In this document: piece by piece, positions 3,706-34,668 of the stretch
How positions within the stretch are numbered: position 1 is the stretch's first letter
How the letters are laid out: each line of letters starts with the position of its first letter
Origin: Deltaproteobacteria bacterium
GTDB taxonomy: Bacteria > Myxococcota_A > Polyangia > JAAYKL01
Assembly: GCA_016935665.1 (NCBI GenBank)
Contig: JAFGQN010000123.1
Coordinates: 1 to 39,474 of the forward strand
DNA length: 39,474 bases
Direction of reading: 5' to 3'
Made by a program: the position numbers and the translations under genes
Notes under the pieces: model-generated
The model's database searches: none
Told to the model about the DNA's origin: nothing
The model's input: only the letters and a program-made list of their open reading frames with translations

Positions 3706-5832
3706 ATGCGTTTTACCTTATTGTTAAGAGTCGTTTATTTTCTTCTTTTTATTTCATTATTACAGGGCAGCTGGGGGTGCAAATCTTCGGCAAAAAACAG
3801 CGGTACTGCAGCAGATACCCACACGGGTACAGATGCTGACACACATTCAGATACCGACACGGGAACGGATTCTGACAAGGGCTTTGAAAAAGTGACCTTG
3901 AAACAGCAGAATGAAACCGTTTTTGCCATGAACAAAATACTGGAATATCACGTGACCATTGACGACGATTTGCTGGCGGACCTGGATGCCAATGGCATTG
4001 AGGAAGAGTATAAAAAGGCCTCGCTTCGGGTGACGGGAGACGGCGTGTCACAGACGTTTGAAGAAGTGGGGATTAGATACAAAGGCGCCGGATCGATAGC
4101 GCCATGCTGGGCGGGCGGCAAGCGGAACTATGATGGCTATTGTGCCCGAATTTCCATGAAATTTAAGTTTAACAAATACGACAAGGATGCGCGGTTTTAT
4201 GGCCTGAAAAAGCTGAACATGCACAGCATGCTTGACGACGCAACCCTGATGCGCGAACCATTAGGCTATAGTCTTTTTGCCGATGCCGGGATTGTCGCGC
4301 CGCGAACGGCGTATGCCAAACTGTATATCAACGGCGAGCTGTCTGGTTTGTATGTGGCGGTGGAAGTCGTCGACGGGCGGTTTACGCATTTTCGGTTTCC
4401 AGAAAGCAAGGACGGCAACCTGTACAAGGAAATATGGCCCAAATCAAATGTGACAGAATCCAGGGCTCTGGAACATTTGGAGACCAATGACGACCCTGAG
4501 GATAATCCGAATGTGTCGGACTTTTTACAATTCAAAGATGCCATTGCAAAAGCAGATGAAAGTAACTTTGAATCTGTGATGAAAGATTGGGTGGACCTGG
4601 ATTTGCTGCTTCGATACGTTGCAGTCGATCGCGCACTTCGTAACTGGGATGGCATTATGGGCTTTTATTCAGCGGATACATCTCACAATTTTTTCTGGTA
4701 TTTTGACAAGGGGGCAACCAATCAGTTTGTTTTGATACCATGGGATATGGACAACACCATGGGCGAGTTTGATTTGCTGATGGATCCAAAGGGGTGGTGC
4801 GGTGCTGTTCCCGTGCCAGACTGGAATATGGTGCCTCTCAACTGTGATGAACGCGCCACGTGCATGAGCGTGGAGGTGGGCATGACTCCGCCAAGATGCG
4901 ACCATTTGATTGATATGCTGGCATTGACACAATGGGACGCGTTTACTGAAATTGGGGATGCGCTGCTGAATGATGTGCTTTCCTACGATAGTATGAACGA
5001 CAAAATTTCAAGGTGGTCCGCGCGGATTGAGGATGCTGTTGACGAAGATCCCATGATGGACGTGGATGATTGGAAAAAAGAACTCGATGCGTTTCGCAAC
5101 ATACTTTTAGACGCGATTTTTGGATTTAAGGAACATTTGGACGAGGGGCTCATAGACGAAGTCAATCCCACGCCGCGCGACGAGTTGGAACTGGTGAAAA
5201 AGATTACTGTTGGAGAACTGCGAACGGATATTGTGAACGGTTTTGAATTTGACAGTGAAGATACTGATGAGTGGACCAAAGCGTTGGACGGGTGGGTATT
5301 GGGAAGCGCGGATTCGCGCACGACAATCAGCCATTCGGTGAATACAACGTCTCCGATAACTGGAACTGCCGACCTTAAGTTGACTGCAGATTTTGTATCG
5401 ACCAATGGCGCGTGGAGTGAATGGGCACACTTTCAGTTGAACGCGCCGAAAGAAACCGACATTAGCGGATATCGATACCTGTGGTTCAGTGCCGCGTCCG
5501 AGACGGCGGCCACAATGCGGATAGTGTTTCGCAGTCCGGCGTATCGCGATTATGGCAATATCTACGAGATGTTCTCCCATGATTATGATTTGAGCGCGAC
5601 GCCGACATTTTATTATATTGACTTAAAAAAAGTGTCCTATCCCAAATGGGCCAAAGACGCCTGGAAAGATGGCGAAGGATGGCCGCCGCCGGATAACGAA
5701 GCGCGGAAGAATGTTCTATCTCATTTTACCGGATTGGAGATTCAGTTAATGCCTACCGTGGACACCTCCGGCGAAATGCCGGCAGACACCGAGCTGATGA
5801 CTGTTTCGTTGGATAACATTTATTTCGAATAG
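3706..5832 (+). CDS. CotH-kinase-like lipoprotein with C-terminal jelly-roll-type domain
   Basis: A 708-residue lipoprotein. The signal peptide ends in GSWGC (cysteine 25) and is followed by an Asp/Thr-rich spacer at residues 33-58. Residues about 70-500 match the CotH family, whose characterised spore-coat members are atypical protein kinases. Visible CotH hallmarks are GIRYKGAGS (122-130), KFNKYD, the LMREPLGYSLFADAG segment (181-195), VDRALRNWDG (307-316, the probable catalytic-loop equivalent) and LIPWDMDNTMG (343-353, the probable metal-binding segment). Residues about 515-708 look like a beta-sandwich binding domain (a carbohydrate-binding or galactose-binding-like fold), judged only from strand pattern. 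The start is supported by AAGGA eight bases upstream. Kinase activity is not established for such surface-anchored versions. The spacer and context suggest a surface or extracellular role. Confidence 0.8.
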   Translation: MRFTLLLRVVYFLLFISLLQGSWGCKSSAKNSGTAADTHTGTDADTHSDTDTGTDSDKGFEKVTLKQQNETVFAMNKILEYHVTIDDDLLADLDANGIEEEYKKASLRVTGDGVSQTFEEVGIRYKGAGSIAPCWAGGKRNYDGYCARISMKFKFNKYDKDARFYGLKKLNMHSMLDDATLMREPLGYSLFADAGIVAPRTAYAKLYINGELSGLYVAVEVVDGRFTHFRFPESKDGNLYKEIWPKSNVTESRALEHLETNDDPEDNPNVSDFLQFKDAIAKADESNFESVMKDWVDLDLLLRYVAVDRALRNWDGIMGFYSADTSHNFFWYFDKGATNQFVLIPWDMDNTMGEFDLLMDPKGWCGAVPVPDWNMVPLNCDERATCMSVEVGMTPPRCDHLIDMLALTQWDAFTEIGDALLNDVLSYDSMNDKISRWSARIEDAVDEDPMMDVDDWKKELDAFRNILLDAIFGFKEHLDEGLIDEVNPTPRDELELVKKITVGELRTDIVNGFEFDSEDTDEWTKALDGWVLGSADSRTTISHSVNTTSPITGTADLKLTADFVSTNGAWSEWAHFQLNAPKETDISGYRYLWFSAASETAATMRIVFRSPAYRDYGNIYEMFSHDYDLSATPTFYYIDLKKVSYPKWAKDAWKDGEGWPPPDNEARKNVLSHFTGLEIQLMPTVDTSGEMPADTELMTVSLDNIYFE

Positions 5833-17966: not shown

Positions 17967-18006
17967 GGACGCCTTTTCAGATTGAATGGCAAATTCAATC
18001 GCGTCC
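17967..18006 (-). other. Stem-loop spanning the stop codon of the GH10-like gene
   Basis: An 8-base perfect stem (GATTGAAT / ATTCAATC, loop of five) at 17980-18000 is extended by a further 6-base stem (GGACGC / GCGTCC) with a seven-base bulge on one side. The structure contains the stop codon of the minus-strand GH10-like gene. No T-run follows in the direction of transcription, so transcript-end processing or stabilisation fits better than intrinsic termination. The rest of the gap 17707-17994 shows nothing recognisable apart from the likely promoter region of the efflux genes. Confidence 0.4.
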
Positions 18007-19236
18007 AAGATATTGCATAAGCCAGGTCAGCGCTGGGCGCGGCACGCCATTGGAGTGGATTAACCATGCGTCGGTTTTCCAGGTGAGCCCCTGTACATAT
18101 CCCCACAGGGTGATGCCTTTGATGGCGGGATGCTCGTATAAAGCGGGAAATAACCGCATCATTTCACCTTCCTGCTCATCGTCGCTGGTTCCCCCCACAC
18201 CAAACTGAGAGACATAAATGGGAAGCTGGTAAAACGCGAGGGAATCGATGTTGAACTCTAATTCATCAAGAGGGATTCCATCGAGGTCATTGCCGGTGCA
18301 CGCGATACCATCAATGAGCTCTCTTTCGTTCAGGAGAGCGACAACGTGGGCAAATTTGTACGTTTCATGAATCAGCGCATTGTATTCTTCTACCAGCAGG
18401 TTGGCCGCGGGGCAGTGATCTCGCGCCATTTGGTAGATGGCAATGACCCAATCATAGCCCGTTATCCCATCTCCCCCGAGGGCGGCTGCATAGGCGGGTA
18501 CACTATGAGCGGGGGCACTGACTACGTTGATCGTTTCCACATCGGGATACTGCCTGCAGAATTCAGCAATCCACTCTTCCACTTCCGCTTTCTGTTCTTC
18601 CGGCGTCAGGGTACTTAACCAGCTGGGTTGCTGCTGGTGCCATACCAGCGGATGCGCTGTAAATGTAATGCCGTTTTCCACAGCTTCTTTATATATGGCG
18701 TCCAGTGCATCCCATTCCATCACATCGCGTTTCGCCTCGATAGTACCCCATTTTCCCGCATTTTCAGGCGTTATCTGATTCCATAACAGAAAGTAACCCT
18801 CTGGAATTTCTTCGTTTTGAGTGATGTTTCCAACCCATTTTGTCTCGTCTGGCACTGCTGTTTCAGTTGCCGTTTCGCTGTCGTCCGTTCCTGTATCGAC
18901 AACCGTATCTGTTCCGATTTCCGTGTCGGTCGCCGAATCGGTCTGGGTTACAGAGTCAGAATCCGTTGGGACAGGAATGCGGGAGTCTGTGGAGGTTTCC
19001 GTAGAGCTGGAAGAGTCATATGTGTTGGTATCGCTGTCTGTTGCATTCGTATCCGATTGTGCGCTGGCAGAATCGGTATTCGGGGTCGTTTCGGACTCGG
19101 TGGGGTGTACAGTATCCACCTGAAATACGCCATCAATGGGTTGGAGGTCCTTTGCATAGCAGCCGGTCACGCCCAGTGCGAAACATCCCAGCGCCGCAGG
19201 TGCGAACAACATAACGAGTGATAATCGCTTTTTCAT
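17995..19236 (-). CDS. GH10 xylanase-like lipoprotein lacking both catalytic glutamates
   Basis: A 413-residue lipoprotein. The start at 19236 gives a standard signal peptide (MKKRLSLVML) ending in VTGC (cysteine 26) and has TGGAA upstream; an ATG at 19263 would add nine residues without a ribosome-binding site. Residues about 41-129 are a Ser/Thr/Asp spacer. The remainder follows glycoside hydrolase family 10: WNQITPENAGKW (152-163), HPLVWHQQQPSW (195-206), LVEEYN and GITLWG (374-379). GH10 enzymes cut xylan using a Glu in DVVNE and a Glu in ITELD. Here these read NVVSA (Ala241) and VSQFG (Gln344). The fold and much of the substrate cleft look retained while hydrolysis should be lost, suggesting a glycan-binding or sensing role. 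It is divergent from the sigma factor gene. Confidence 0.82.
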   Translation of the reverse strand: MKKRLSLVMLFAPAALGCFALGVTGCYAKDLQPIDGVFQVDTVHPTESETTPNTDSASAQSDTNATDSDTNTYDSSSSTETSTDSRIPVPTDSDSVTQTDSATDTEIGTDTVVDTGTDDSETATETAVPDETKWVGNITQNEEIPEGYFLLWNQITPENAGKWGTIEAKRDVMEWDALDAIYKEAVENGITFTAHPLVWHQQQPSWLSTLTPEEQKAEVEEWIAEFCRQYPDVETINVVSAPAHSVPAYAAALGGDGITGYDWVIAIYQMARDHCPAANLLVEEYNALIHETYKFAHVVALLNERELIDGIACTGNDLDGIPLDELEFNIDSLAFYQLPIYVSQFGVGGTSDDEQEGEMMRLFPALYEHPAIKGITLWGYVQGLTWKTDAWLIHSNGVPRPALTWLMQYLGRD

Positions 19237-19288
19237 CTGGTTCCAGAAAACTGAAAGTGACATTTTTATCTATTGGGACAACCCAGTG

Positions 19289-19304: not shown

Positions 19305-19434
19305 ATTTGGATTATATCCATTTTGGGGAAATATTTATATTGAAAAAAATTGTCGAATTCTTCTGTATGCTGAGCTGATAAATACATTAAAGGTACTCCT
19401 TGTACAGGAAAGACGGAAAAGTCAGGAATTTCCA

Positions 19435-20025
19435 GTGAGGCAGGTTATCGATAACTTAATTTCCAATCAGGATTTAATAGATGGGATTGATTCCGGGGAT
19501 GGCTCCTGTGCAGCGGAATTTTATCGAAGATACGGAAAACGAATAGAAAGGCTGGTTCGCAGTTTGCTTGGCGTGGATAATGCACACGACGATGTGGTGC
19601 AGATGGTTTTTTTAAATATATTGGATTCCATCTCAAGCGTGAGAGACGCGAGCCGTTTAGATTATTGGGTTGATAGTGTGACGTTTAGAACTGTTTATAA
19701 AGAACTGCGCAGTCGCAAATATAGACGGCAGGTCGTTCCTGCTTCCGACACAATGCCGGAGGTGGTGGATACTCGAAATCCTGAGGGAACATGGGTTGCG
19801 AGACAATTTTATGTGGCGCTCGATCAATTGAAGCCTGAAGAACGGATGATGCTGGTAATGAAGTATTTTGAACATTGCACGCTGTCGGAGATGGCCAAAA
19901 TCAGCGGGTGGAGTGTGGCAACCGTGAAGCGGAGGATTCAACGAGCGGTAGCCGCGTTCGAGAAGATTGCAAGAGAAGATACGATCCTGGCGTCGTATGT
20001 TGGAGAAAATCACCATGTTGGATAA
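19435..20025 (+). CDS. RNA polymerase sigma factor, ECF-like
   Basis: A 196-residue sigma-70 family factor with only regions 2 and 4. Region 2 includes the segment around DDVVQMVFLNILDSI, and region 4 has the helix-turn-helix CTLSEMAKISGWSVATVKRR. The GTG start at 19435 is preferred because AGGAA lies a few bases upstream and homology begins soon after; the frame extends further upstream with sequence that does not look like a sigma factor. It overlaps the FecR-like gene by eleven bases, so the pair is translationally coupled, as expected for a sigma factor and its membrane regulator. The target promoters are unknown, but the divergent GH10-like gene is an obvious candidate. Confidence 0.87.
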   Translation: MRQVIDNLISNQDLIDGIDSGDGSCAAEFYRRYGKRIERLVRSLLGVDNAHDDVVQMVFLNILDSISSVRDASRLDYWVDSVTFRTVYKELRSRKYRRQVVPASDTMPEVVDTRNPEGTWVARQFYVALDQLKPEERMMLVMKYFEHCTLSEMAKISGWSVATVKRRIQRAVAAFEKIAREDTILASYVGENHHVG

Positions 20026-21346
20026 TGATTTTGCTTGCAGAGAATTGACGGAAATTGTGCGGGAAACGCTCGACGCCGAGGATGTGCTGGCATCGAAAAG
20101 GCATGAGCAGCTCTTTGTTTCACTGGTGAAGAGTCAAAAAGAGCGAAAACAACGGATGAAGAAAATTCGGATTGGGTTGCGGATTGCGGCGATTGCTGCT
20201 GCAGCGATTATTGTCACATCCATCGCTTTGGTCCGACTGCCTGGAGATTTGTCTTTTAAGGTAGGCAGCGCTGCGTCCGATTTTGTTACCGGTGAACCCG
20301 GAGAATGGGTTCAGGCGGATACCGGCGAAAGCATGCAGATAAAATTTGACCAGGGATCATCGTTTGAGGTGAAGGATGGCTGCGCTGCGCGGGTTGTGGA
20401 ATCAGGTGAGGAAGCGGTGACTATCGAATTGTCAAAGGGCGATATATCTGCGGATGTGAAAGGCAACAAAAAGACACGCTGGAAAATCAACGCCGGTCCG
20501 TTCACAGTGACCGTACTGGGAACTGCATTCGATGTTTCGTGGGATGCCGCATCCAATGCATTTGATGTGAAAGTCAGACGGGGGGCGGTTCTTGTTCAGG
20601 GCGCGGGTCTGAGTCGTCACGGGGTTCGACTGCTTGCCGGTCAGCATTTGGCGGCCAATGGGCGTTCCGGGGAGATTTCCCTCAAGTCGCCTGGGACAGT
20701 TACTGCGGAAAAAACGCAGGTTATCGACAGTGAAGCGGGTTCCGCCAGCCAGCTGGCCGTGGATGACGAGCTGATTGAAGATACAATGAACATGTCTTCA
20801 CACGAAGAAGTTGATAAATCCGATGCAGATTTGAGTGCATCGAAACGCCATCCTGGAAAATCCGGCGTTGGTCATAGTCTTAAGAATTCATTTGATAATC
20901 ATTACAAAGAGGGGCGTTATGCGGATGCGGTTCGCGCCGCTGAAAAAGAGGGCTTGAGCCGGCTGTATCAGAATGCGGACGCCAAAACCCTTTGGAATCT
21001 GGCGGATGCGGCACGCAATGCCCGACGTGTTTCTGTTTCCAACGAATCCCTCATAGCGCTTCGCAAGCGATTTCCCGGAAGCAAAAAAGCCCAATTGGCG
21101 GCGTTTATTATTGGGCGCTCCGCCATGGATGTGTCGCACAACCCGTCCCTGGCGGCGCAGTGGTTCCAGGCGTATTTGGTCGAATCTCCGGGGGGGGCCA
21201 TGTGTGAAGAAGTTCATGGCCGCTTAATGTCCATCTATACACAAATGAATCGTCCTGCGGCAGCAAAGCGCATTGCAACGCAATATTTGAGACAATATCC
21301 GGCGGGGCTCTATGCGGGGCGCGCAAACCAGGTGTTGCAGAAATAA
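20015..21346 (+). CDS. FecR-domain membrane protein with C-terminal TPR-like helices
   Basis: A 443-residue protein. The start at 20015 follows GGAG (in TTGGAG) and overlaps the sigma gene's end. A cytoplasmic stretch of about 50 residues, without the HxxxCxxC zinc motif of many anti-sigma factors, leads to one membrane helix (about 53-73). A periplasmic FecR domain follows (about 95-230, with WVQADTGESMQIKF and VTVLGTAFDVSW), then a charged linker and a C-terminal helical repeat region (about 300-443, with TLWNLADAARNARR and FIIGRSAMD) resembling tetratricopeptide repeats. FecR proteins transmit surface signals to their partner sigma factor. The TPR-like part may bind the downstream outer-membrane protein. 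This architecture, without a TonB receptor, is common in myxobacteria-like genomes. Confidence 0.82.
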   Translation: MLDNDFACRELTEIVRETLDAEDVLASKRHEQLFVSLVKSQKERKQRMKKIRIGLRIAAIAAAAIIVTSIALVRLPGDLSFKVGSAASDFVTGEPGEWVQADTGESMQIKFDQGSSFEVKDGCAARVVESGEEAVTIELSKGDISADVKGNKKTRWKINAGPFTVTVLGTAFDVSWDAASNAFDVKVRRGAVLVQGAGLSRHGVRLLAGQHLAANGRSGEISLKSPGTVTAEKTQVIDSEAGSASQLAVDDELIEDTMNMSSHEEVDKSDADLSASKRHPGKSGVGHSLKNSFDNHYKEGRYADAVRAAEKEGLSRLYQNADAKTLWNLADAARNARRVSVSNESLIALRKRFPGSKKAQLAAFIIGRSAMDVSHNPSLAAQWFQAYLVESPGGAMCEEVHGRLMSIYTQMNRPAAAKRIATQYLRQYPAGLYAGRANQVLQK

Positions 21347-21366
21347 AAAATGTGTATAATGGGCGA

Positions 21367-22446
21367 ATGACTTGCCCGTCGCAATTTATTCCAAACATGG
21401 TGTTTTTAATGCTGTTTTTAGTTGCTGGGTCGATTGCGGCGCAAGCAGAGGAGTCACCTGCTGAATCAATTCGACCCGTTGTGGTAATTGTCTCTTTGAG
21501 CCAGTGTTGCCAGGCGGAAGCGTGGCCGGAAGCCGAAGAAAAGGTTCGGTTGGAATTCACGCAGGGCGGAATTGATGTGGTTGTGGTTCAGGGGACTACC
21601 GAGACAGAATCAGAGCGGCGGGCAGAACTGATGGAAATTGCATCGGAATACAATGCCGCCGCCGCGATACGTATTCTGAAACCGCCCTCCAACGCGAAAA
21701 GGGCTGGCGTCGATTTGTGGATTAGCGACCGGGTTACCCAGAAAACGGTATACCGATTTTTGCCTCTTCACGACATTCATTCGGGCGAATCCTCTTTGGT
21801 CGCTGCTTTGAAAACGGTGGAGTTGTTTAAAGGCAGCCTTCAGGAGATTCACCTTGATGGAGAATCGAAACGAAAGTTACCCACCACTGTTCAGAAGATG
21901 GCGGAGACACCTCATCGTCCGTTGTCCGCCCGCAAGACCTTGCGAATGGCGGCGGGATTTGGCGGTATTTTTTTCGCACGTGATGTGGGTTTTCGAGGCG
22001 CTCCCATGATTTGGTTTGGGTGGTCGCCCATTGGCGCATTTGCCATTAAACTCGAAGGCGCGTTGGGCGTTATTGGCAGGGATATTGAGAAAAGCGGCGC
22101 TGCGTCGACACTTCATTTCAATTCCGTTTCACTGAAACCCATGTGGGTAATGGACAAATCCCATCTGGTCATGCCAGCTATCGGTCTGGCAGTGGGCGCC
22201 GCTTATGTTCGGGTGGAAGGTGTGCGGGGAAACAATCCGATTCAGCGAGAAGACCATTTCACCGCTCTATATGTCGGACTGACATCAGAAATGTCATTTT
22301 CAATGACGGAATCCCTCTGGTTGACCCCCTCGTTTGATATTGGATTTATTGCACCTCAGGCCAGAATACTGTTTTCCGATAAGGAAGTGGCAGAATTCGG
22401 CGTACCTGTATTGACATTTGCTTTAGTGGTGGACGTCCACTTCTGA
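21367..22446 (+). CDS. Predicted outer-membrane protein of the sigma/FecR cluster
   Basis: A 359-residue exported protein. The ATG at 21367 is chosen over a GTG five codons upstream; neither has a strong ribosome-binding site. A signal peptide ends near AAQA (about residue 26). The N-terminal half (residues about 35-155) is an alpha/beta domain (PVVVIVSLSQCCQAEAWPEAEEKV, then IDVVVVQG) with a cysteine pair. The C-terminal half (from about residue 190) alternates short amphipathic strands (MAAGFGGIFFARDVGF, AFAIKLEGALGVIG, YVRVEGV) and ends in VVDVHF, with the terminal Phe typical of outer-membrane barrels. It follows the FecR-like gene after 20 bases. It probably presents a periplasmic domain attached to a small barrel. 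No function is assigned. Confidence 0.65.
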   Translation: MTCPSQFIPNMVFLMLFLVAGSIAAQAEESPAESIRPVVVIVSLSQCCQAEAWPEAEEKVRLEFTQGGIDVVVVQGTTETESERRAELMEIASEYNAAAAIRILKPPSNAKRAGVDLWISDRVTQKTVYRFLPLHDIHSGESSLVAALKTVELFKGSLQEIHLDGESKRKLPTTVQKMAETPHRPLSARKTLRMAAGFGGIFFARDVGFRGAPMIWFGWSPIGAFAIKLEGALGVIGRDIEKSGAASTLHFNSVSLKPMWVMDKSHLVMPAIGLAVGAAYVRVEGVRGNNPIQREDHFTALYVGLTSEMSFSMTESLWLTPSFDIGFIAPQARILFSDKEVAEFGVPVLTFALVVDVHF

Positions 22447-32696: not shown

Positions 32697-34367
32697 TTAT
32701 TTCACACATTTTTTAATGTTGCAGAAGTTGCCATTGAGAATGGCCGCGCCGAACCACGCCAGAAACTGGTCAAAATACAGTTCATTGTGCTCCAGGTCCT
32801 CGTCGTTTCCGCTGGGATCGGTTTTAAGCCCCCACACGTCTCCGTCCTCGTAGAATTCATCCAGCTCGCGACTGAATGCCTCTGCGGCATTCATATCGCC
32901 CATTCCCATGGCAGCGGCCGCCCACATTCCAATTGTTAGATGACTGTGTTCGTTTCTGGAGCGACTGATGGTGCCGCCAGCGAGGTCATTCCACATGTCG
33001 GATTTGGGAACCTGCTCGCCGTTCATCTTGTAAAAGTTGGCCAGATGTGCCGGAGAATTGGGGTCGTCGTCACTGCCGTCATCACTGGCTTTGTCTTCCA
33101 GGAATTCAATGGCGTTTTCCAGAAATTTAACGGCGCGGGGTTCGTTGAACCAGATGGCATCGGTGGCCAGACGCCAGTAGACGCGAATGCCGTCTTTGAA
33201 CATGGACTGCCCGTTATCGTATGCATTGTATCCGGGGCCATTTGCCAATAAATCCCCCCAGGCGTTCATCCAGTCCGGGAGCAGGCCTTTGTCGTAACCG
33301 GGATTGGCTTCGATAGTATCGTAGCATTGATTAATAACGTCATTCCAGTTGTGGTCGTCCCACTGGTCAAATTCGTCGAAGATGCGGTACCACGCGGGTG
33401 CAAAATAACCGGGGTTTAAACTGTCTTTACTGCCGAATGCGTTGCCTGGAATCACATACTTATAATCTTCAATCATATTATCCCAGATAGAGGTGACGAT
33501 GGACTGGGCGCGATCGTAGTAGCTGACATCTCCGTGACGATGATCGCTCCAGATACCCTGATTCACCAGATGATCTGCAAAAATGAGCGCCAGGGCAATG
33601 TCTTCATCGGCATCGGTGGCGGCGTTTACACCGTTTTCGTCAAATATTCCACCCTGTTCATTGCAGTGCCAGTTGTAGACAAATCCGTTCCACATGTGGT
33701 CTTCGGCAGCGCCCCAGATCTTATTAAAATAGCTCTGGTCATTGGCGTAGAGCGCCAGAATCATTCCGTATCCGACACCCTCGGACACCGCGTCATTGGG
33801 GTATTCGGATTTGGGCCGGTGCACCAGAGGAACAGAATATTTGTCAATATTTCGTTTCTTCAGACCGTCCCACGTGGCCAGGAGTGCCGGTGTCCAGTCT
33901 TTTTCCACACGGGCGTCACCGTTGGTTTGCTCGATGGGGTAATCAACCGGCTCTGTTTCCTCTTCGGTTTCCTGCTCCGAACCGGTTTCGGTGTCTGCAT
34001 CACTGTCGCTATCTCCGTCCCCATCCGAGTCCGAGTCCGAGTCCGCATCACTGTCCCCATCTGAGTCTGCGTCTGAATCCGAATCGGAATCGCCATCTGC
34101 ATCGCCATCACTGACGTCGCCGCTGGTGTAGCAACCGGGTTCGCCATCGACGGTGCCGCAGACTTTTGATTCGTCAGCACAATTTTGAATTTCCGTCCAC
34201 TGCTGTGATGTGCATTCCATTAGAGCGCCATCGTAACAGCCGGTTTCCCCATCGCTATTGCAGCTGCTGCCGGCAATGGCGGCATTGGACATCATATCCC
34301 CGCCGCAGGCGGCGCTGAAAATGCCAAATGGTATGAGGATTGAAATAAGAAAAGAAATGTGTTTCAC
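32697..34367 (-). CDS. Glycoside hydrolase family 8 lipoprotein
   Basis: A 556-residue surface glycosidase; GH8 members cut cellulose, chitosan, lichenan or xylan. The GTG start at 34367 follows GGAG and gives a lipoprotein signal ending in SAAC (cysteine 21). Residues about 35-80 hold a six-cysteine module (CNSDGETGCYDG and later C residues), then an Asp/Ser/Gly spacer (86-127). The catalytic domain (about 145-550) shows the GH8 signature SEGVGYGM, with proton donor Glu196, and ATDADEDIALAL (250-261) around the substrate-binding aspartates. Both appear intact, so activity is likely, unlike the GH10-like protein in this window. It converges on the FHA gene with a 49-base gap. Confidence 0.87.
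   Translation of the reverse strand: MKHISFLISILIPFGIFSAACGGDMMSNAAIAGSSCNSDGETGCYDGALMECTSQQWTEIQNCADESKVCGTVDGEPGCYTSGDVSDGDADGDSDSDSDADSDGDSDADSDSDSDGDGDSDSDADTETGSEQETEEETEPVDYPIEQTNGDARVEKDWTPALLATWDGLKKRNIDKYSVPLVHRPKSEYPNDAVSEGVGYGMILALYANDQSYFNKIWGAAEDHMWNGFVYNWHCNEQGGIFDENGVNAATDADEDIALALIFADHLVNQGIWSDHRHGDVSYYDRAQSIVTSIWDNMIEDYKYVIPGNAFGSKDSLNPGYFAPAWYRIFDEFDQWDDHNWNDVINQCYDTIEANPGYDKGLLPDWMNAWGDLLANGPGYNAYDNGQSMFKDGIRVYWRLATDAIWFNEPRAVKFLENAIEFLEDKASDDGSDDDPNSPAHLANFYKMNGEQVPKSDMWNDLAGGTISRSRNEHSHLTIGMWAAAAMGMGDMNAAEAFSRELDEFYEDGDVWGLKTDPSGNDEDLEHNELYFDQFLAWFGAAILNGNFCNIKKCVK
33987..34112 (-). repeat. Asp/Ser-coding low-complexity repeat in the GH8 spacer
   Basis: A simple-sequence stretch of six-base units reading GAC/GAT plus TCN/GGN/GCN encodes about 42 residues of alternating Asp with Ser, Gly or Ala. 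It acts as the flexible, possibly calcium-binding spacer between the lipid anchor and the GH8 domain. Such tracts can change length by slippage. Confidence 0.75.
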
Positions 34368-34668
34368 CTTAAGTCTCCATTGGGTTTTGTGCCAAAATTG
34401 CAATATTGCTCCGCGTGCGCGACGCCAGCAAAATAGCGAATTTTCACGTCGAAGCAATTCATTCTAAAGAGATGATGCGTCCTCTTCTGATTGTAACAAT
34501 ACCGGAAAACAGTCACACTGTACAGAGTAGAGTCCATATCTGTGAGAACCTTTCAGTTTTTTTCAAAAATGTCATGTTTGAACCATCGCGGGCTCGACAA
34601 GCGTCAGATGTTTTTATAAGTAACAACAGCCCGACGAATCGGGCCAGACAACCTTCCAGGAGTATTCT
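34368..34668. other. Divergent intergenic region between the GH8 gene and purB
   Basis: This roughly 300-base stretch must hold the promoters of both divergent genes. It is AT-rich in the middle (around 34550-34620). I could not assign a clear -35/-10 pair. The only distinct structure is the hairpin at 34629-34644; no small gene was recognised. Confidence 0.4.
34629..34644 (+). other. Hairpin in the purB leader
   Basis: GCCCGA-CGAA-TCGGGC forms a perfect six-base stem with a four-base loop, about ten bases upstream of the purB ribosome-binding site (AGGAG). It may tune translation or transcript stability. No purine riboswitch or PurR-type box was recognised. Confidence 0.4.

Follow-up and report, generated by a model that had tools for sequence, protein, structure and literature searches.

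A lipoprotein with a GH10 xylanase fold that lacks both catalytic glutamates and the surrounding catalytic network

The window analysed here, a stretch of 39,474 nucleotides from a Deltaproteobacteria bacterium, encodes a lipoprotein that has kept the GH10 fold and lost both catalytic glutamates together with the wider catalytic network. It is probably a catalytically dead descendant of an active xylanase, kept to bind xylan or xylooligosaccharides through its retained cleft; this ligand and this role are what we infer by analogy with characterized proteins. The gene and its parts were as follows.

17995-19236, minus strand: coding sequence of the pseudo-GH10 lipoprotein, 413 residues (422 residues from the upstream ATG at 19263)
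19159-19236, minus strand: lipoprotein signal peptide with lipobox VTG-C, recognized in the sequence (Cys codon at 19159-19161, followed by YAKDLQPIDG)
18844-19158, minus strand: Ser/Thr/Asp-rich spacer of about 105 residues, from the ORF translation
17998-18843, minus strand: GH10-fold domain without catalytic residues (Pfam, AlphaFold model, structure comparison)
18514-18516, minus strand: Ala250 (Ala241 in the 413-residue form) at the position of the acid/base Glu, Cex E127 (pairwise and multiple alignments)
18205-18207, minus strand: Gln353 (Gln344 in the 413-residue form) at the position of the nucleophile Glu, Cex E233 (pairwise and multiple alignments)
18385-18390, minus strand: Glu292-Glu293 where the NDY motif has an invariant Asn-Asp; each member of the clade described below (three proteins) is acidic here

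The 413-residue form begins at the second of two in-frame ATGs. This start, at 19236, is likelier than the one at 19263 because a GGAA lies about six bases upstream of it and because the shorter form has the better signal peptide (MKKRLS...GVTG-C). The coordinates and residue numbering of the first-pass annotation are those of the 413-residue form and were right; its description of a lipoprotein with a long spacer also agreed with the VTG-C lipobox and the Ser/Thr/Asp-rich stretch. We infer from these features that the protein is exposed at the cell surface.

A Pfam profile search matched PF00331 to residues 151-417 of the 422-residue form (E 4.9e-38, 131.5 bits, cut-off 22.1), and the top solved relatives were structures of the xylanase XacXynB (4pn2/4pmx, E 3e-68). 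The AlphaFold model of the GH10 domain, computed from a 15-sequence alignment (prediction from the single sequence reached a pLDDT of 48), was a complete (beta/alpha)8 barrel with the usual strand-helix order (pLDDT 84.9, pTM 0.86), in which model residues 251-258 formed one poorly predicted loop. The model superposed on XacXynB 4pmy with a Z of 37.0 and an rmsd of 1.6 over 280 residues, and Foldseek agreed with a XacXynB-like fold (TM 0.92). The scaffold is kept, as the first-pass annotation had stated. XacXynB, from Xanthomonas axonopodis pv. citri (4pmx, 4pmy, 4pn2), has the closest fold among solved structures (about 39% identity, Z 36-37), but it is an active enzyme with both glutamates, whereas the window protein has neither.

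In the pairwise alignment with XacXynB (4pn2/4pmx), VVNEP is replaced by VVSAP and ITEFD by VSQFG, and there is no gap at either motif; a 40-sequence alignment and a larger one gave the same two replacements. The acid/base Glu of the VVNE motif is Ala and the nucleophile Glu of the ITE motif is Gln. This is what had been read from the sequence at first (Ala241 and Gln344), and alignment to GH10 structures, the check proposed at that time, placed these residues at the two Glu positions. We discarded the idea that the catalytic glutamates sit at shifted positions, since neither the pairwise nor the multiple alignments need a gap at the motifs and the superposition of the predicted fold covers its whole length. 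An assembly or sequencing error was also rejected, because an independent ortholog in a separate genome and a paralog at a second locus of the same genome share the double loss.

These two proteins are clearly the closest relatives: L012, in the congener G001 (56% identical), and L018, on contig C95 of the genome of the window, G000 (53%). Both lack the two glutamates, their motifs reading VVAM/ISGLE and VAKA/ITAFN, respectively. In the tree the three proteins form a clade with a support of 100/100, and the next relatives (about 40% identity) retain both glutamates; a single loss in the common ancestor of the clade is the simplest history. The mature N-terminus is alike in all three (C-x-x-x-D-L-x-P), the lipobox Cys being followed by VTRDLEPIGA and FAVDLEPLDG in the two relatives. 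The search for relatives with the same substitutions thus found the loss of both residues again, but with other replacements: the acid/base and nucleophile positions are Ala/Gln, Met/Gly and Ala/Ala across the clade. Because the replacements differ between members, the catalytic sites seem to have drifted after the loss, so the scaffold would have been kept by selection and the catalytic positions left free to change, with no particular replacement selected. The three loci, all in one genus, were the only members found in 14 genomes from the family and a sample of 379 from the phylum. Fourteen loci in GTDB species contigs were more distant GH10s, and those inspected retain both glutamates.

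The loss extends well beyond the two residues noticed at first. We used 25 apparently active GH10 relatives as a reference, which gave 55 near-invariant columns. Nine of these were altered in all three clade members, and eight of the nine belong to the catalytic network: D246, N249, E250, N292, D293, Q323, E353 and D355 in the numbering of the 422-residue form (Cex D123, N126, E127, N169, D170, Q203, E233 and D235). The ninth is G209, and H325 (Cex H205) was altered in two of the three members. The enrichment of lost columns in the catalytic network (Fisher p 6.5e-8) is descriptive, the categories having been set after the data were seen. Residues E167, N168, H204, W208 and W387 (Cex E43, N44, H80, W84 and W273) were retained in all three proteins, as were many structural positions, while K171 and W395 (Cex K47 and W281) were retained in two of three, K47 of the -2 subsite being Leu in the paralog. 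The subsite assignments are those that we take to hold from established knowledge of Cex. This pattern of changed and retained columns indicates that the proteins lost their catalytic network but kept the barrel and the -2 side.

One set of changes could be read as chemistry that has moved: Glu292 and Glu293, together with the retained Glu167 (E43), would form a new active site with a changed mechanism or substrate. The NDY motif has become [E/D]EY, each of the three members being acidic at both sites, and the position of N169 is Asn in 25 of 25 intact relatives. Against this, the second change, Asp to Glu, is conservative and both sites lie on the +1 side. Furthermore, no GH10 enzyme is known to function when either of the usual glutamates is missing. 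We consider such a relocated site quite improbable. Several glycoside hydrolase folds have been reused in non-catalytic roles, the GH18-fold inhibitors being an example, and the protein could likewise act in adhesion or as a structural element and have no defined glycan ligand, for instance by making protein-protein contacts on the surface. This is very unlikely, as there is no evidence for a partner and the retention of the -2 subsite fits glycan binding better.

The gene is maintained. L012 is the positional ortholog, as nadC, a CPBP-type gene, rimO, the outer-membrane protein gene, the FecR gene and the ECF sigma gene follow in the same order in G001. Comparison of the window gene with L012 gave a pN of 0.30 and a pS of 0.78, the latter too saturated for a dN/dS; there were no stops, while neutral simulations of the pair produced about 6 to 11. 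The clade evolves faster than its surroundings, with 56% identity where the syntenic genes have 61-83% and pairs of intact GH10s 74-79% (77% for the intact pair that includes L031, G002:C56; G002 is a genome of the same genus). This indicates that constraint is relaxed relative to the enzymes. A redundant copy left over from the expansion of the GH10 family, which has lost activity and is slowly on its way out, would also evolve faster than its active paralogs, and the genome does contain two fragmentary GH10 copies (G000:C111:21229-21582 and G000:C132:6209-6508, one with an internal stop), which are probable pseudogenes or assembly breaks. We nevertheless find this improbable: even with silent sites diverged to saturation, the frames are open in both species and at both loci, silent changes are in strong excess, and the lost columns are concentrated in the catalytic network rather than spread across the fold. 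The first-pass annotation had judged that the gene was not decaying, and the open frames, with replacement changes well below the saturated silent ones, support that judgement. At the level of sequence, maintenance argues against simple decay and favours no one function.

Glycan binding or sensing, as the first-pass annotation suggested, is a reasonable prediction. For the binding reading, we propose that in the small clade's ancestor an active GH10 xylanase lost the catalytic network as a whole, and that the lipid anchor and flexible spacer would hold the resulting pseudoenzyme on the outer membrane. The retained cleft, mainly its -2 side, would bind xylan or xylooligosaccharides, and the bound substrate might be captured for the cell's own apparently intact GH10s, of which there are roughly ten, or its presence might be reported. 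The 16 GH10 matches in the genome (8.16 Mb, 249 contigs) and a GH8 protein encoded in the window count in favour of binding; counting against it, the cleft residues could be retained for folding, K47 is Leu in the paralog, constraint is relaxed relative to the enzymes, and the known members number just three, from a single genus. Two MYXO-CTERM matches in the genome, against none in the control, hint that the organism is Myxococcota-like.

There is a precedent in Bacteroides ovatus. BACOVA_03431, encoded within a SusC/D locus for xylan, is an inactive GH10-like surface lipoprotein that binds xylan; its nucleophile is reported to be lost and its -2 subsite disrupted (Rogowski et al. 2015, PMC4491172). 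According to the same paper, a second naturally inactive GH10 had yet to be described. Compared by description, the window protein resembles it in its GH10 descent, in being a lipoprotein (lipobox VTG-C) whose GH10 domain has lost catalytic residues, in that no hydrolysis is expected and in its proposed binding of xylan. The two differ in that BACOVA_03431 lacks the nucleophile and has a disrupted -2 subsite, whereas the window protein lacks both glutamates and the network and retains its -2 residues. They also differ in setting: no match to SusD_RagB was found in the whole genome of the window, while a control genome was positive. Any uptake scheme would therefore differ from that of Bacteroides.

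Divergent from the pseudo-GH10 gene lies the following unit.

19405-20025, plus strand: ECF sigma factor, also adjacent in G001 (Pfam Sigma70_r2/r4, synteny)
19967-21346, plus strand: FecR-domain, anti-sigma-like protein with a hydrophobic transmembrane-like stretch (PF04773, E 1e-10; 67% identical in G001)
21352-22446, plus strand: third gene of the unit, for a putative outer-membrane protein (synteny in G001 and G002); a Pfam profile search gave no match for its product

This arrangement makes it possible that the pseudo-GH10 acts in sensing. It would detect extracellular xylan and signal, perhaps through the outer-membrane protein, to the FecR anti-sigma and the ECF sigma factor, which would turn on genes for xylan use. 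In Clostridium thermocellum, the GH10 domain of RsgI6 is the xylan-sensing module of an anti-sigma factor; it binds both xylan and cellulose and is very weakly active (PMC4711584). The window protein is like it in that a GH10 domain is used for binding (as predicted here) and is encoded together with an alternative sigma factor. The pseudo-GH10 and the ECF sigma, FecR and outer-membrane protein genes are syntenic in G001, and the corresponding unit in G002 carries the start of a lipoprotein with a similar N-terminus (GCSVERLYPVG) and a repeat spacer, which runs off the contig end. Similar units elsewhere in the genome also adjoin surface lipoproteins. Nevertheless, the GH10 domain of RsgI6 is fused to the anti-sigma, whereas the pseudo-GH10 is a separate ORF on the opposite strand beside the ECF/FecR unit; the paralog on C95 sits elsewhere, with no ECF/FecR neighbour; and since ECF/FecR units and lipoproteins are both abundant in the genome, their association may be chance. 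On this evidence we hold a sensing role to be rather unlikely. The upstream regions of the clade genes were too diverged to show a shared promoter element, and a promoter scan gave nothing above chance. The RND pump encoded downstream (17706-13352) is not conserved, a search of G001 and G002 having given no close homolog of its adaptor, and the idea of a link to it was dropped.

Many further units of ECF sigma, FecR and outer-membrane protein genes were seen at L104 and L118-L129, several with divergent surface lipoproteins adjacent. Near one of them, a lipoprotein (L104:5905-7629) resembled, by eye, a beta-helix pectate lyase. Elsewhere in the window are a GH8 lipoprotein (32697-34457), from a family of endoglucanases or xylanases, whose spacer is rich in Asp, Ser and Gly, and a CotH-domain lipoprotein (3706-5832). 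The CotH-dockerin protein CseP is a cellulosomal component in C. thermocellum (PMC4711584).

At least four other degenerate GH10 lineages occur in the genus, which points to repeated active-site change. One is present in two species (L036:1266-2132, G000:C210, and L037:102-962, G001:C400; 65% identical); both glutamates are kept and the equivalents of Q203, H205, D235 and W273 are lost, and in G000 L036 is followed, at a distance of about 2 kb, by an ECF sigma/FecR pair. A GH10 lipoprotein of the Cex type, L006:1092-1991 (G000:C130), forms a long branch amid closely related intact paralogs and has Arg for E43, Asp for N44, Lys for N126 and Asp for the acid/base Glu. Two more GH10 lipoproteins keep both glutamates and have altered -1 subsite residues: L028:1501-2334 (G001:C504), with Tyr for N126 and Gln for H80, and L013:1501-2328 (G002:C38), with Phe for H80, Ala for Q203 and Thr for H205. 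A bolder reading, to which we give a low probability, is that non-catalytic GH10 surface lipoproteins arose repeatedly in the genus (at least five lineages) and that one of them forms, together with an ECF sigma/FecR unit, a xylan sensor in separate parts, a trans-acting counterpart of RsgI6.

The clade, whose inactivity is predicted from sequence, is a clear further case in the known but very small class of inactive GH10s. It is new in coming from a genome without a SusD match and in its pattern of loss, the whole network being gone while the -2 side stays. Its three diverged members may help to separate the GH10 residues that serve folding and binding from those that serve catalysis alone, and with an ECF/FecR unit next to the window gene, the sensor idea can be tested directly. 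For genome surveys, the finding is a caution that GH10 genes should not be equated with xylanases, since several of those matched in this genus seem to be inactive or changed.
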